Shown: piece after piece, positions 3,567-12,264 of the stretch | Layout of the letters: every line of letters begins with the position of its first letter | Position numbering within the stretch: position 1 is the first letter of the stretch | DNA from: Betaproteobacteria bacterium | Lineage (GTDB): Bacteria; Pseudomonadota; Gammaproteobacteria; Burkholderiales; SG8-39 | Length of the DNA: 13,727 nucleotides | Direction of reading: 5' to 3' | Assembly: GCA_011391185.1 (NCBI GenBank) | Contig: JAABRB010000057.1 | Location: 1-13,727 of the forward strand | Made by a program: the position numbers and the translations under genes | Notes under the pieces: generated by a model | Told to the model about the DNA's origin: nothing | What the model saw: the letters and a program-made list of their open reading frames with translations, nothing else | The model's database searches: none

Positions 3567-3613
3567 TCCGCGTACACTGACCCGCGTAAAGACGGCGGAT
3601 TCTGTGGAATTGT

Positions 3614-3697
3614 CCGAAATGGGCCACAATCCGAAATGGGCCACAATCCGAATTGAGCCCGATCCGTATTGGATCCGTATTGGATCCGTATTGGGAG
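3614..3697. repeat. six-copy degenerate direct-repeat array upstream of dctQ
   Basis: Two exact 17-bp units (CCGAAATGGGCCACAAT at 3614-3630 and 3631-3647) are followed by a diverged third (CCGAATTGAGCC, 3648-3659). Three exact 11-bp units then follow (GATCCGTATTG at 3661-3671, 3672-3682, 3683-3693). Aligned on CCG, all six share the core CCGWAWTGRG, starting at 3614, 3631, 3648, 3664, 3675 and 3686, with periods of 17, 17, 16, 11 and 11. The array ends about 80 nt before dctQ. It could be an iterated regulator-binding region or slippage-grown microsatellite DNA. Confidence 0.8.
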
Positions 3698-9108: not shown

Positions 9109-9426
9109 GGGTCTCCTCCTAATCATTGGTTGTGTGTCGAAAAACGGATCAGAGCCCGGTCGGTGGTCCAACAGAGCGTGGGGCCGACTTCTTGTCTGGA
9201 TTCCGGTGCTGCGCTCATCCCCCCGCGCAGCTTGAAACAGGCGCCGTTTCAGGCGGTAGTCCTCCGTCCGGGACACCCTAGCAAGTAAATGCGCGAACGG
9301 CAAGCGAATCGGGACCCCGCGCAATGTGCGCACGAAACGCGGCACCGTGGAAACAATCGCCGCACCGGTGTCTTCTTTGTGCACTGCACGGTCGTTTCGC
9401 TCACGCGCTCACGTATAGTCACGCCC
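9109..9426. other. 318-bp divergent intergenic region between dctP and the aldolase-fold gene
   Basis: No gene is convincing here. It must hold the promoters of both flanking genes. Visible elements: the dctP ribosome binding site (complement of 9112-9120); a dyad TGAAAC (9233-9238) / GTTTCA (9246-9251) with a GGCGCC core, a possible operator; and TATAGT at 9414-9419, a good -10 hexamer seven bases before the plus-strand ATG at 9427, without a convincing -35. Open frames crossing the region are extensions of the flanking genes. Confidence 0.5.
9233..9251. promoter_or_regulatory. dyad in the dctP/aldolase divergent region, candidate operator
   Basis: TGAAAC and GTTTCA form a 6-bp inverted repeat around AGGCGCC, whose GGCGCC is itself palindromic. 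It lies about 125 bp upstream of dctP and 175 bp upstream of the aldolase-fold gene, a fitting place for a shared regulator. No regulator family is assigned. Confidence 0.3.
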
Positions 9427-9427
9427 A
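9414..9427 (+). promoter_or_regulatory. -10-like TATAGT immediately before an ATG, possible leaderless start
   Basis: TATAGT (9414-9419) is five of six to the sigma70 -10 consensus. It is followed after seven bases by the ATG at 9427, which also lacks any Shine-Dalgarno. Transcription starting about seven bases after the -10 would begin on the start codon. No clear -35 is seen at 16-18 bp, so this is a suggestion only. Confidence 0.3.
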
Positions 9428-10206
9428 TGCCCGGAAAGCCACGCGGTGCAGTGACCGGACCACCCACCCGCAGCGCGGCCGCGCTGCGCCGACCGTCCGC
9501 GTCGCTCCGGGCACTGATGGAAGACCTGGTCGCAGCGAACCGGATCCTTGCGCACTATGGCGTCCTGGACGCCTACGGCCATGTCAGCGCGCGACATCCT
9601 GCCGACGCGGACCGATTCCTGATCTCCCGGTCGCGCGCACCCGAGCTTGTCACGGCAACCGACGTGATGGTGCTCGACCTCGACTGCAATCCGGCCGCCG
9701 GGGATGAGCGGCAGCCCTATCTCGAGCGGTTCATCCACGGCGAGATCTATCGAGCGCGGCCCGATGTCCTGGCCATCGTTCACAGTCACGCGCCTGGCGT
9801 CATCCCGTTTGCTGCATCGTCGATTCCGCTGCGCCCGATCTACCACATGGCGGGTTTCCTCGGACGCGGCGCGCCGGTGTTCGATATCCGGAGCCGGTTC
9901 GGCCCCACCGACCTGCTCGTCCGTAATCACGATCACGGCCGGGCGCTCGCCGAGACGGTCGGCGCGAGCGTCGTCACACTCATGCGCGGCCACGGGTACG
10001 TGGCGGTTGCGCCCAGTGTTCCGCTTGCCGTGTTTCGCGCCATCTACACCCAGCTGAACGCGTTGCTGCAGCAGCAGGCGATCGCGCTCGGCGGAACGGT
10101 GACCTATCTTGTGCCCGAGGAGGCCGCGCTTTCCGAGCCCACTCACGCGAGCACAATCATGCGGCCTTGGGAACTCTGGAAGCGCAAGGTCGCGCCGGGG
10201 AAATAG
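9427..10206 (+). CDS. class II aldolase / ribulose-5-phosphate 4-epimerase family protein
   Basis: A 259-residue cytoplasmic enzyme of the FucA/AraD fold. These use a divalent metal for retro-aldol cleavage or epimerisation, and some members are decarboxylases or dehydratases. Seen: LMEDLVAANRILAHYGVLDAYGHVSAR (about 30-56, typical opening), IHGEIYRARPDV (103-114), VHSHAP (118-123, metal ligands His119 and His121), and RGHG (187-190, third ligand His189). The ATG at 9427 has no Shine-Dalgarno but sits right behind a -10-like box. An alternative start is Met31 (9517), where family similarity begins. It diverges from dctP and is followed 19 nt later by a MITE-like element and then modBC. Exact substrate unknown. 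The close relation to hydroxy-acid metabolism fits the nearby TRAP and hydratase genes. Confidence 0.85.
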   Translation: MPGKPRGAVTGPPTRSAAALRRPSASLRALMEDLVAANRILAHYGVLDAYGHVSARHPADADRFLISRSRAPELVTATDVMVLDLDCNPAAGDERQPYLERFIHGEIYRARPDVLAIVHSHAPGVIPFAASSIPLRPIYHMAGFLGRGAPVFDIRSRFGPTDLLVRNHDHGRALAETVGASVVTLMRGHGYVAVAPSVPLAVFRAIYTQLNALLQQQAIALGGTVTYLVPEEAALSEPTHASTIMRPWELWKRKVAPGK

Positions 10207-10225
10207 CGCGCGATGCGCGTCGCTA

Positions 10226-10436
10226 GTGTCCCGAATCAGGGATTCGTTGAACAAGTTCTCAGGTGGAACTGCCCTATCCATGATCGACGAGTACGCCGAA
10301 GGCAAGCGAAAACCGCTCGGTTCGCCGTCAGGCGAGGCGCGCGACGCAGCCCAGACTGGCCGTCTTGGCAAGGAGCGGAACGACGCCTGGCGGCGAACTG
10401 GGCGGTTTTCTTCGGCGAATTTCTGATTCGGGACAC
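10226..10436 (+). mobile_element. MITE-like element with terminal inverted repeats and a 58-bp folded core
   Basis: The ends GTGTCCCGAATCAG (10226-10239) and its exact complement (10423-10436) are bounded by TA (10224-10225, 10437-10438) inside CTAG. Excising it leaves CGCTAGCG. As plus-strand RNA, 10221-10251 pairs with 10411-10441 (31 bp, four G-U). Then 10308-10334 pairs with 10384-10410 (27 bp, three G-U) with no gap on the 3' side. The 56-nt 5' bulge carries a small hairpin (10254-10258/10266-10270). The tip carries another (10349-10356/10362-10369, one mismatch). No transposase is encoded. TA duplication at CTAG is known for IS630-type transposition; a 4-bp CTAG duplication (IS5-type) is the alternative. 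ERIC and Correia elements are analogues in size and folding. Confidence 0.8.
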
Positions 10437-10442
10437 TAGCGC

Positions 10443-11108
10443 ATGGACTGGAGCGCACTTTGGCTGTCGCTGAAGCTCGCGGTTGCGACCGCGACGCTGC
10501 TGCTGCCGCTTTCGATTCTCCTTGCTCGCGAGCTCGCGTGGCGGCGCTTCGCGGGCAAGGCCGCCGTGGAGGCGCTGGTCGCATTGCCGCTCGTGCTGCC
10601 GCCGACGGTCCTCGGCTATTACCTGCTCGTGGTCTTCGCGCCGCAGTCGGTGCTCGGCCAGGCCTTTGCGGCGCTCACCGGCGGGACCCTCGCGTTCAGC
10701 TTCGCGGGATTGCTCGCGGCATCGATCCTCTTCAACCTGCCCTTCGCGGTGCAGCCGGTGCAGCGCGCGTTCGAATCTATTCCCGTGCATGTGCGCGAGG
10801 CGGCATGGCTGTGCGGCATGTCCGGCTGGCGGACGCTATGGCAGGTCGAGCTGCCGCTCGCGTGGCCCGGGCTGCTGAGCGCGTTCGTGCTGACCTTCGC
10901 GCATACGCTGGGCGAGTTCGGTGTCGTGCTGATGGTCGGGGGCAACATTCCCGGAGAGACGAAGACGATTGCGATCGCGATCTACGACCGCGTGCAGGCG
11001 CTCGACGATGGCGCGGCCGGTGTCATGTCGGCGCTGCTGCTGGGAATCTCGTTCGTGTCCATCACGGTGATCTACACGCTCGACCGGGCGAGGCGGCGGC
11101 GTGGCTGA
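10443..11108 (+). CDS. modB: molybdate ABC transporter permease
   Basis: A 221-residue inner-membrane permease matching ModB in length and motifs. It has about five hydrophobic segments, ALPLVLPPTVLGYYLL (47-62), the cytoplasmic EAA loop REAAWLCGMSGW (118-129) that couples to the ATPase, and THTLGEF-type GEFGVVLMVGGNIPG (157-171), all typical of ModB. The ATG lies five bases beyond the right TA of the MITE-like element. The only ribosome-binding-like sequence, GGGA (10430-10433), is inside that element. It overlaps modC by 8 nt (11101-11108). No substrate-binding modA is found in the window, and the element sits where a preceding gene would be expected. Molybdate, tungstate and sulfate permeases are related, but the motifs and the neighbouring molybdo-enzyme favour molybdate. 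Confidence 0.88.
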   Translation: MDWSALWLSLKLAVATATLLLPLSILLARELAWRRFAGKAAVEALVALPLVLPPTVLGYYLLVVFAPQSVLGQAFAALTGGTLAFSFAGLLAASILFNLPFAVQPVQRAFESIPVHVREAAWLCGMSGWRTLWQVELPLAWPGLLSAFVLTFAHTLGEFGVVLMVGGNIPGETKTIAIAIYDRVQALDDGAAGVMSALLLGISFVSITVIYTLDRARRRRG

Positions 11109-12264
11109 GCCGGCGCTCATCGTCCGGCTCGACCAGGCGGCGCCGATTCCGCTCAAGGTTGCATTCGAATGCGTGGCCGGCGAACTCGTCGCGCTCGTCG
11201 GCCCGTCCGGCAGCGGCAAGTCCACCATCCTGCGCGCGATTGCGGGACTGGTGAAACCGGGGTCGGGCGAGATCCGATGCAACGGTGAGACGTGGCAGGA
11301 CGCGACGCGTTTCGTGGCGCCGCAGGCGCGCCACGCGGGGCTGGTCTTCCAGCACTACGCGCTCTTTCCGCACATGAGTGCACGCCGCAACGTGGAGGCA
11401 GCGCTCGGCACCGTTCCCCGGATGGCACGGCACGACCGCGCGCGTGAATTGCTCGACCTCGTCAACCTCGGCGGTCTCGAGGATCGCTTGCCGCATGCGC
11501 TCTCGGGCGGGCAGCAGCAGCGGGTTGCCGTGGCCCGGGCACTCGCACGCGACCCGCAGGTTCTGCTGCTGGACGAGCCGTTCTCGGCCGTGGATCAGGT
11601 GACGCGACGCAAGCTGCAGCGCGAGCTCGCGCTGCTGCGCCGGCGGCTGCGCATGCCGATCGTGCTGGTCACGCACGATCTCGAGGAGGCGGCGATGCTC
11701 GCCGACCGGATGGTCGTGCTGCACGCCGGCGAGACGCTGCAAGCCGGCCCACCCTTCGAACTGATCGCCCGGCCCCGTGACGTGCAAGTCGCGCGGCTGG
11801 TCGACTTTCGCAACCTGTTTCACGGCGAGATCGTCGCGCACCATCCCGACGCGGGCCACAGCCTGGTGCGCTGGCTCGACTACACGCTCGAGGCGCCGCT
11901 GCGCACGGAGTTTGCGGCGGACGGCCCGATCTCCTGGGGAATCCTGCCCGCGCATTGCATCCTGCACCGGCGCGACCGGCCCTCGCGCGGCGAGCGCGAA
12001 AATCCCGTGAGCGGGGTGATCGGCGAGTTCCTGCCGTTCGGCGAGAATGCGGCGGTGACCATGCACGTGGACGGGCGCGTGGACGCGGACCTGCAGGTCT
12101 CGATCCCGCTGCATGTTGCCGATCGGAACGGCCTCGCGCTGGGCACCGAGATCCGGGTCTCGCTGCTCCGGGACGGCATTCACCTGATGCCGTTTCAACC
12201 CCTGGATCGCAGGGCGGGTGTTCCGCGAGGCGCGGGAGTTGACCCGCGGTTGGCGGATGAGTAA
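11101..12264 (+). CDS. modC: molybdate ABC transporter ATP-binding protein
   Basis: A 387-residue cytoplasmic ATPase that drives ModB. Seen in order: Walker A GPSGSGKST (34-42), Q-loop Gln84 in LVFQHYALFP, signature LSGGQQQR (134-141), Walker B VLLLDEP (154-160), and switch His192 in VTHD. A linker follows, and a C-terminal TOBE-type anion-binding domain covers about 303-367 (SGVIGEFLPFG ... LGTEIRVSLL), as in ModC and CysA. The GTG start overlaps modB by 8 nt, so translation is coupled. The tail after the TOBE domain (about 20 residues) is not conserved-looking. The stop codon touches the IscR-like site of grxD. Confidence 0.9.
   Translation: MAEPALIVRLDQAAPIPLKVAFECVAGELVALVGPSGSGKSTILRAIAGLVKPGSGEIRCNGETWQDATRFVAPQARHAGLVFQHYALFPHMSARRNVEAALGTVPRMARHDRARELLDLVNLGGLEDRLPHALSGGQQQRVAVARALARDPQVLLLDEPFSAVDQVTRRKLQRELALLRRRLRMPIVLVTHDLEEAAMLADRMVVLHAGETLQAGPPFELIARPRDVQVARLVDFRNLFHGEIVAHHPDAGHSLVRWLDYTLEAPLRTEFAADGPISWGILPAHCILHRRDRPSRGERENPVSGVIGEFLPFGENAAVTMHVDGRVDADLQVSIPLHVADRNGLALGTEIRVSLLRDGIHLMPFQPLDRRAGVPRGAGVDPRLADE

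Follow-up and report, generated by a model that had tools for sequence, protein, structure and literature searches.

A hairpin-forming IS630-type MITE in a betaproteobacterial genome bears a covarying tip shared with MITEs of other ends

A short element lying between an aldolase-like gene and modB in betaproteobacterial DNA is read here, with a probability of roughly 0.7, as a non-autonomous MITE of the IS630 family that carries a separate structured module, one that has been kept or acquired by MITEs of both IS630 and IS5 type. The element folds into a long hairpin, has copies in related genomes, ends in IS630-like sequence and bears a tip that covaries across elements, all of which we regard as established. 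As an IS630 MITE the element itself is of a known kind; what stands out is the covarying tip that it shares with others. The window, which is the whole stretch of 13,727 nucleotides analysed, was previously described in an earlier note from its sequence, and the coordinates of the features under study are collected in Table 1.

On the plus strand, all 31 positions of the outer stem (10221-10251 with 10411-10441) are paired, 27 by Watson-Crick and 4 by G·U pairs, and so are all 27 positions of the inner stem (24 Watson-Crick and 3 G·U), so that the 58 gapless pairs comprise 51 Watson-Crick and 7 G·U and include neither A·C nor any other mismatch. This recount agrees with the 31 consecutive outer pairs, the second stem of 27 bp continuing without a gap on the 3' side and the 56-nt bulge on the 5' side that the earlier note had reported. 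Its description of the 58-bp stem as mismatch-free holds for the plus strand if G·U is counted as a pair, but not for the minus strand, where the seven G·U turn into A·C. Folding of both strands, a check that had also been proposed there, yields a long hairpin on either, stronger on the plus strand (-135.9 kcal/mol, shuffled mean -86.8; z -10.4) than on the minus strand (-117.6 kcal/mol; z -7.0), and in neither case did any of 200 shuffles equal the observed energy. The "small hairpin" placed at the tip is indeed present, as a 49-nt tip with a hairpin of its own, but it is more than incidental: no other part of the element is shared so widely. Similarly, the proposed span of 10221 to 10441 is better drawn from TA to TA, since the outermost stem pairs belong to the flanks. 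No transposase gene lies inside the element, which is crossed only by mechanical reading frames.

Table 1. Features of the element and its two neighbouring genes, in window coordinates.
Feature	Position	Strand	Basis or remark
Class II aldolase-like gene (below model cut-offs)	9289..10206	+	ends 17 nt 5' of the element
Left-edge CTAG	10223..10226	.	TA 10224-10225; putative duplication by IS630-type insertion
Whole element, TA to TA, 215 nt	10224..10438	+ (strand reading the tip forward)	terminal inverted repeats; comparison with 193-nt copies
5' terminal arm, IS630-type end (GTGTCCCGAATCAGGGATTCGTTGAA)	10226..10251	+	pairing; comparison with IS630 ends
Unpaired 5' bulge, 56 nt	10252..10307	+	fold; equivalent stretch varies most among 193-nt copies
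Inner stem, 5' arm, 27 nt	10308..10334	+	pairing
Conserved tip, 49 nt	10335..10383	+	fold; match to model R1
Apical hairpin of the tip (GCCCAGAC-TGGCC-GTCTTGGC)	10349..10369	+	stem sequence covaries between elements
Inner stem, 3' arm, 27 nt	10384..10410	+	pairing
3' terminal arm, partner of the 5' arm	10411..10436	+	pairing
Right-edge CTAG	10436..10439	.	TA 10437-10438
modB	10443..11108	+	ATG 4 nt past the element; synteny with relatives starts here

The ends of the element match those of IS630-family insertion sequences at up to 21 of 23 bases, and the element is therefore assigned to the IS630-type MITEs; of the two parents offered by the earlier note for a transposed non-coding MITE, IS630 or IS5, the former is thereby supported. 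The figure of 21/23 belongs to the window's 3' end and the right end of a Paraburkholderia IS630, with 19/23 for the 5' end, and comparison with Variovorax IS630 ends gives 20/23 (3' end) and 18/23 (other end). A Variovorax element of this family (L292, in genome G003) is 1167 bp long, has ends starting TAGTGTCCTGAGTTAGAAATTCGTTGAA and encodes a transposase that scores 262 bits against the IS630 model (cut-off 100). Relatives of 1171 bp with the same kind of ends are found in Pseudomonas sp. MPC6 and Paraburkholderia sp. PGU19; among the five named relatives inspected, that of Bradyrhizobium has no clear ends and those of Cupriavidus and P. syringae have other TAGTGT ends. Among the 30 PF13358 loci listed in DDE searches of eight genomes, L292 has the ends closest to the window's, and three further loci (L274 with PF13358, L297 and L298 with PF01609) also begin TAGTGT but diverge beyond. 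When 114 TAGTG sites in the fetched DNA were compared over 24 bases, 72 had 6-15 matches and 42 had 18-22, with L292 at 19; we take these two groups as unrelated sites and family sites, respectively. The tip was found in none of 60 DDE loci from the eight genomes at E 0.01, and among the end matches listed for seven genomes (at most one mismatch) no pair, on inspection by eye, lay 0.5-3 kb apart as an autonomous copy with the window's ends would. Insertion of an IS630-type MITE of this sort at TA would depend on a transposase supplied in trans. For such parentage there is a precedent in RUP of Streptococcus pneumoniae, a MITE that, in the excerpted text of PMC2229807, is 107 bp long, has the ends of IS630-Spn1, is inserted at TA and occurs in 108 copies; it resembles the window element in family of ends and target and differs in size.

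An exact pattern of the window's end, searched in the genome-contig collection, identified 44 loci. Twelve of them contain a paired element, always with the tip; its length is 193 nt in eleven and 163 nt in one (Variovorax). TA is present at both edges of the window element, within CTAG as the earlier note had it, and in 10 of these 12 other copies. In the remaining 32 loci the matched end lies outside any tip-bearing element (in one of them, L010, a tip match occurs at another place in the locus), and 23 of these are palindromes of 56-76 nt, 19 in records titled Alphaproteobacteria or with the name of a member of that group and 4 in records titled only Proteobacteria. Several Alphaproteobacterial intergenic regions (L003, L005, L014, L036 and others) have two to four short TAG-ended hairpins of different sequence side by side, one kind of which has the window's end sequence but no tip. 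Full-length copies number nine in one genome (G001) and six in another (G002), the latter with one more cut at a contig end. With one copy and its flanks as query, 32, 13, 41 and 37 matches were obtained in four of four genomes of the G018 genus, at most 40 candidates being scored per genome, a few matches being to the flanks and many copies being cut at contig ends. Relatives with such ends are multicopy per genome in betaproteobacteria. The multicopy occurrence with TA-bounded ends that had been anticipated for related genomes is thus borne out by the 12 paired loci, by G001 and G002 and by the whole G018 set, and the stem is kept among copies; the element proved neither single-copy nor unconserved in its stem.

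Comparison of individual sites bears on mobility. One copy of the G018 genus is missing in all three genus mates, whose intergenic flanks have diverged. A double-hairpin copy in B. cenocepacia, which lacks a CTAG duplication, is clearly absent at the corresponding position in B. arboris and B. stagnalis; a third record for the site (B. multivorans) matches only from inside the element onward. In a BLAST search of plasmids with the window element, nothing but the 51-nt tip region matched, and this in two Burkholderia replicons with different stems and ends. Named plasmids or chromids of Cupriavidus, Mitsuaria, Comamonas, Diaphorobacter, Azotobacter, Halomonas and Variovorax match parts of tip-bearing elements in BLAST, and three of the seven plasmid or chromid records in one such search were typed conjugative. 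An actinobacterial element (L333) had no plasmid match, phages gave a single weak match (Burkholderia phage KS10, E 0.06), and viral contigs had no match to two patterns.

The tip is conserved with strong covariation. Fifteen tips from elements with unlike stems can be aligned and share conserved motifs and covarying helices. They were taken from BLAST matches and from a finder demanding an outer stem and a GGCRC-like motif, so that the outer helix and this motif are partly preselected, and one sequence (L085a) was left out because it aligned badly. In this alignment 90.4% of cells are paired, compared with 66.0% after shuffling and 31-41% in slid-structure controls, and 81 cells carry double changes, compared with 28.7 after shuffling and a value that none of 500 shuffles reached. 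Double changes occur in 15 of the 21 pairs, which is a weak measure because 12 of 500 shuffles also reach 15. The two inner helices, which were not preselected, comprise 12 pairs, 8 of them with double changes. A covariance model of the tip (R1), built from 15 sequences including the window, matches the window at 10326-10392 with 71.6 bits, a score to be read with the window's place among its sources in mind. At E 1e-3, R1 has matches in 64 of 398 genomes of Pseudomonadota and 14 of 296 of Actinomycetota, counts that rest on at most 13 and 17 scored candidates per genome, respectively, strict filters and rough E-values. All eight actinobacterial loci inspected combine the R1 match with the tip motif, and five have TAGTG ends; each of the six folded on the tip-forward strand forms one long hairpin, and the two folded on the opposite strand are weaker. 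R1 hits are selected for pairing, whereas outward extension of the stem is free of such selection, and in 130 of 160 tip matches (not deduplicated) this extension exceeds the 99.9% level of shuffled flanks. None of 4227 Rfam models matched the window at gathering scores, nor positions 10150-10500 at E up to 1; two related loci (L001 and L002) had sub-gathering matches only, the best with a microRNA model at E 0.0085, and sets of 14 and 20 related loci returned only tRNA and Alpha_RBS. Searches of the open-licence PMC literature listed no description of the window's ends or tip.

Elements with this tip come in two architectures. A strict test for an end pair succeeded in 47 of 112 tip loci and failed in 65, partly from short flanks or imperfect ends, so the sizes given here rest on a part of the set. 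Single hairpins with TAGTGT-type ends (n=16) include ten of 154-165 nt (nine of them 162-165), five of 193 nt and the window element at 215 nt; double hairpins with TAGGG ends (n=15) measure 267-273 nt as read by eye, and some of the TAA-type ends assigned at other sizes probably represent internal repeats. Where a locus has two tips (n=51), they stand on opposite strands, with a spacing of 103-108 nt in 50 loci and 116 nt in the other. Within a single genome (G002), a double-hairpin MITE (L205) agrees with a resident IS5-family element at 19/19 bases of the left end and 18/19 of the right, and IS630-type single-hairpin MITEs with the tip are also present. The tip is therefore a module shared across transposase families, occurring in single-hairpin MITEs with IS630-like ends and in double-hairpin MITEs with mostly IS5-like ends, a split that is not absolute because two doubles (L224 and L231) have TAGTG-type ends. 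A separate module of this kind, an inner stem capped by the conserved covarying tip, would have been acquired or kept by both IS630-type and IS5-type MITEs. In another genome (G595; e.g. L241), palindromes of 53-54 nt consist of two IS5-like ends with little between them and are perhaps deletion derivatives of double-hairpin elements. The same genome has a pair of IS5-like ends 3.96 kb apart, which was rejected as an autonomous element as it encloses FliK-like and SpoIIE/response-regulator genes and no transposase.

Selection for the folded structure is well supported. Across 19 distinct 193-nt copies, variability per ten-base block is 0.36-0.57 in the bulge and 0.06-0.29 in the paired parts, and pairs are kept in 98.4% of cells in the terminal inverted repeats (95.4% shuffled) and in 88.8% in the inner hairpin (81.1% shuffled). 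For strand-specific selection the evidence is mixed and not general, pointing to some families only. Beyond the model, G·U outnumbers A·C on the tip-forward strand by 50:12 in 81 non-redundant hairpins; by class the ratios are 27:3, 14:6, 10:5 and 12:0, or 63:14 pooled under another deduplication order, and in the 19 copies of 193 nt they are 58:4 for the terminal stem and 30:22 for the inner hairpin. Most of the excess comes from four genomes, G020 (49:4), G038, G363 (19:0) and G003. Strand selection as a general rule was rejected, because the signal is strong when pooled but not significant by genome (sign test, 23 vs 14 with 13 ties, p 0.19). Orientation to genes shows no preference either: the upstream gene runs in the direction of the tip in 11 of 18 copies, or 11 of 21 with three more copies included (gene calls crude).

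Among the alternatives, a mobile RNA stem-loop of the ERIC/NEMIS type, which in read-through mRNA would bring about RNase processing or altered stability of neighbouring messages, is the best placed, and we consider it possible though rather doubtful. At the window locus the element is co-directional with both neighbours, its plus-strand fold is very stable and has G·U without A·C, and two genomes (G020 and G363) show the large excess given above; the copies examined show no orientation bias, however, and double-hairpin elements bear tips on both strands. Precedents for such stem-loops are described in the excerpted part of PMC2229807, in which ERIC/IRU and Correia/NEMIS are, like the window element, short TA-bounded MITEs with long stem-loop transcripts; the window element differs from them by its inner stem and tip, and a blastn search of 20,395 E. 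coli records at E 0.01 gave none of the matches that would mark an ERIC member. Other families can be compared by description, from excerpts of the respective papers. CIR of Caulobacter and Brucella resembles the double-hairpin relatives in having two hairpin arms with a linker and TA termini, but it has a GANTC motif at a loop and terminal inverted repeats marked absent in the table (PMC2229807). The R0 and R2 repeats of P. fluorescens are likewise probable MITEs that form hairpins and have the ends of resident insertion sequences, and differ in their 89 and 110 bp (PMC2718517).

A second alternative concerns the position of the element only. In two relatives, G023 and G369, modB follows modA, and the aldolase gene lies on other contigs and is followed by other sequence. 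The empty CGCTAGCG site predicted by the earlier note did not turn up in either, the aldolase gene and modB not being neighbours there. As the flanks are non-adjacent in both, the element marks a synteny break, either a rearrangement or an assembly join. A repeat copy may thus have joined two distant regions in assembly, the element being real and its position not, which we hold to be unlikely. Synteny with the two relatives breaks at the element, and many matches in the draft genome G113 are located some 110-125 bases from the start of a contig, as would happen if contigs broke off within copies; on the other side, recombination between two copies or deletion beside the element would leave an identical trace. 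The same trace would be expected from inter-copy recombination, from an element-linked deletion removing modA, or from assembly through a repeat. In the stretch 10207-12264, modB is accompanied by a ModC-like gene (below the model cut-off), with no modA upstream, and a modA-like gene, identified by eye, precedes modB in both relatives examined. The 3' arm overlaps the stretch where the modB ribosome-binding site would lie, so that lower modB translation on a read-through mRNA is plausible; such an mRNA, coming from the aldolase gene, would place the hairpin directly before modB and probably lower its translation. Elsewhere in the window, at 3613-3694 before TRAP transporter genes, there are two tandem arrays, one of 17 nt x 2.4 (TCCGAAATGGGCCACAA) and one of 11 nt x 3.1 (GATCCGTATTG).

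Template-switch correction of quasi-palindromes is a known process, and it provides the basis for a third alternative, in which the element is an ordinary IS630 MITE, the hairpin is a by-product kept paired by template switching and the tip reflects shared descent without function. The non-significant per-genome G·U test, the G·U to A·C ratio of 30:22 in the inner hairpin and the lack of preference in gene orientation would all fit. This explanation nevertheless seems improbable to us, since the tip motifs and covarying pairs persist where stems share little sequence, the tip sits in both IS630-like-ended and IS5-like-ended MITEs at near-fixed sizes, and the unpaired bulge is more variable than the paired parts. 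Finally, mobilisation as a REPIN-like substrate of an HUH Y1 (RAYT/TIRYT) transposase that recognises the tip hairpin was rejected as very improbable: inverted hairpin pairs do look like REPINs and Y1 matches occur in 16 of 18 genomes searched (15 above the family cut-off), but at E 0.01 no tip was found in any of 22 Y1 loci, where the best match had 18.1 bits (E 0.028), five of the eight examined have flanking inverted repeats of their own, and the MITE ends match DDE elements. Four of the Y1 (RAYT-like) genes (L250, L251, L253 and L255) lie between inverted repeats of their own, which are of the GGG-CAG kind and have no relation to the tip. In the excerpted text of PMC3733652, REPINs and TIRYT-associated TIR repeats are similarly dispersed and often paired hairpins, and differ in depending on an HUH rather than a DDE transposase.

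On the preferred reading, an IS630-type MITE with a separate tip module, our best guess is that the working form of the tip is a folded single strand, RNA or ssDNA, two options that the present data do not separate. Selection would act on this strand either as read-through RNA or as ssDNA exposed in replication, and a host factor would recognise the tip in it and so raise the persistence or spread of the element. Tentatively, and with low confidence, the tip may represent a new type of structured nucleic acid, most probably a hairpin of RNA or ssDNA that a conserved host factor recognises; MITEs of at least two unrelated transposase families across Pseudomonadota and Actinomycetota would have adopted it because it helps them to spread or keeps long palindromes from being removed.

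MITEs are usually seen as passive remnants of insertion sequences. That MITEs with different transposases have a covarying tip in common suggests a part under selection for which no one transposase can account. R1 provides a searchable model for a large repeat class, of which we found no listing, and with it the long-standing question of why MITEs of bacteria form such good folds can be put to a direct test.
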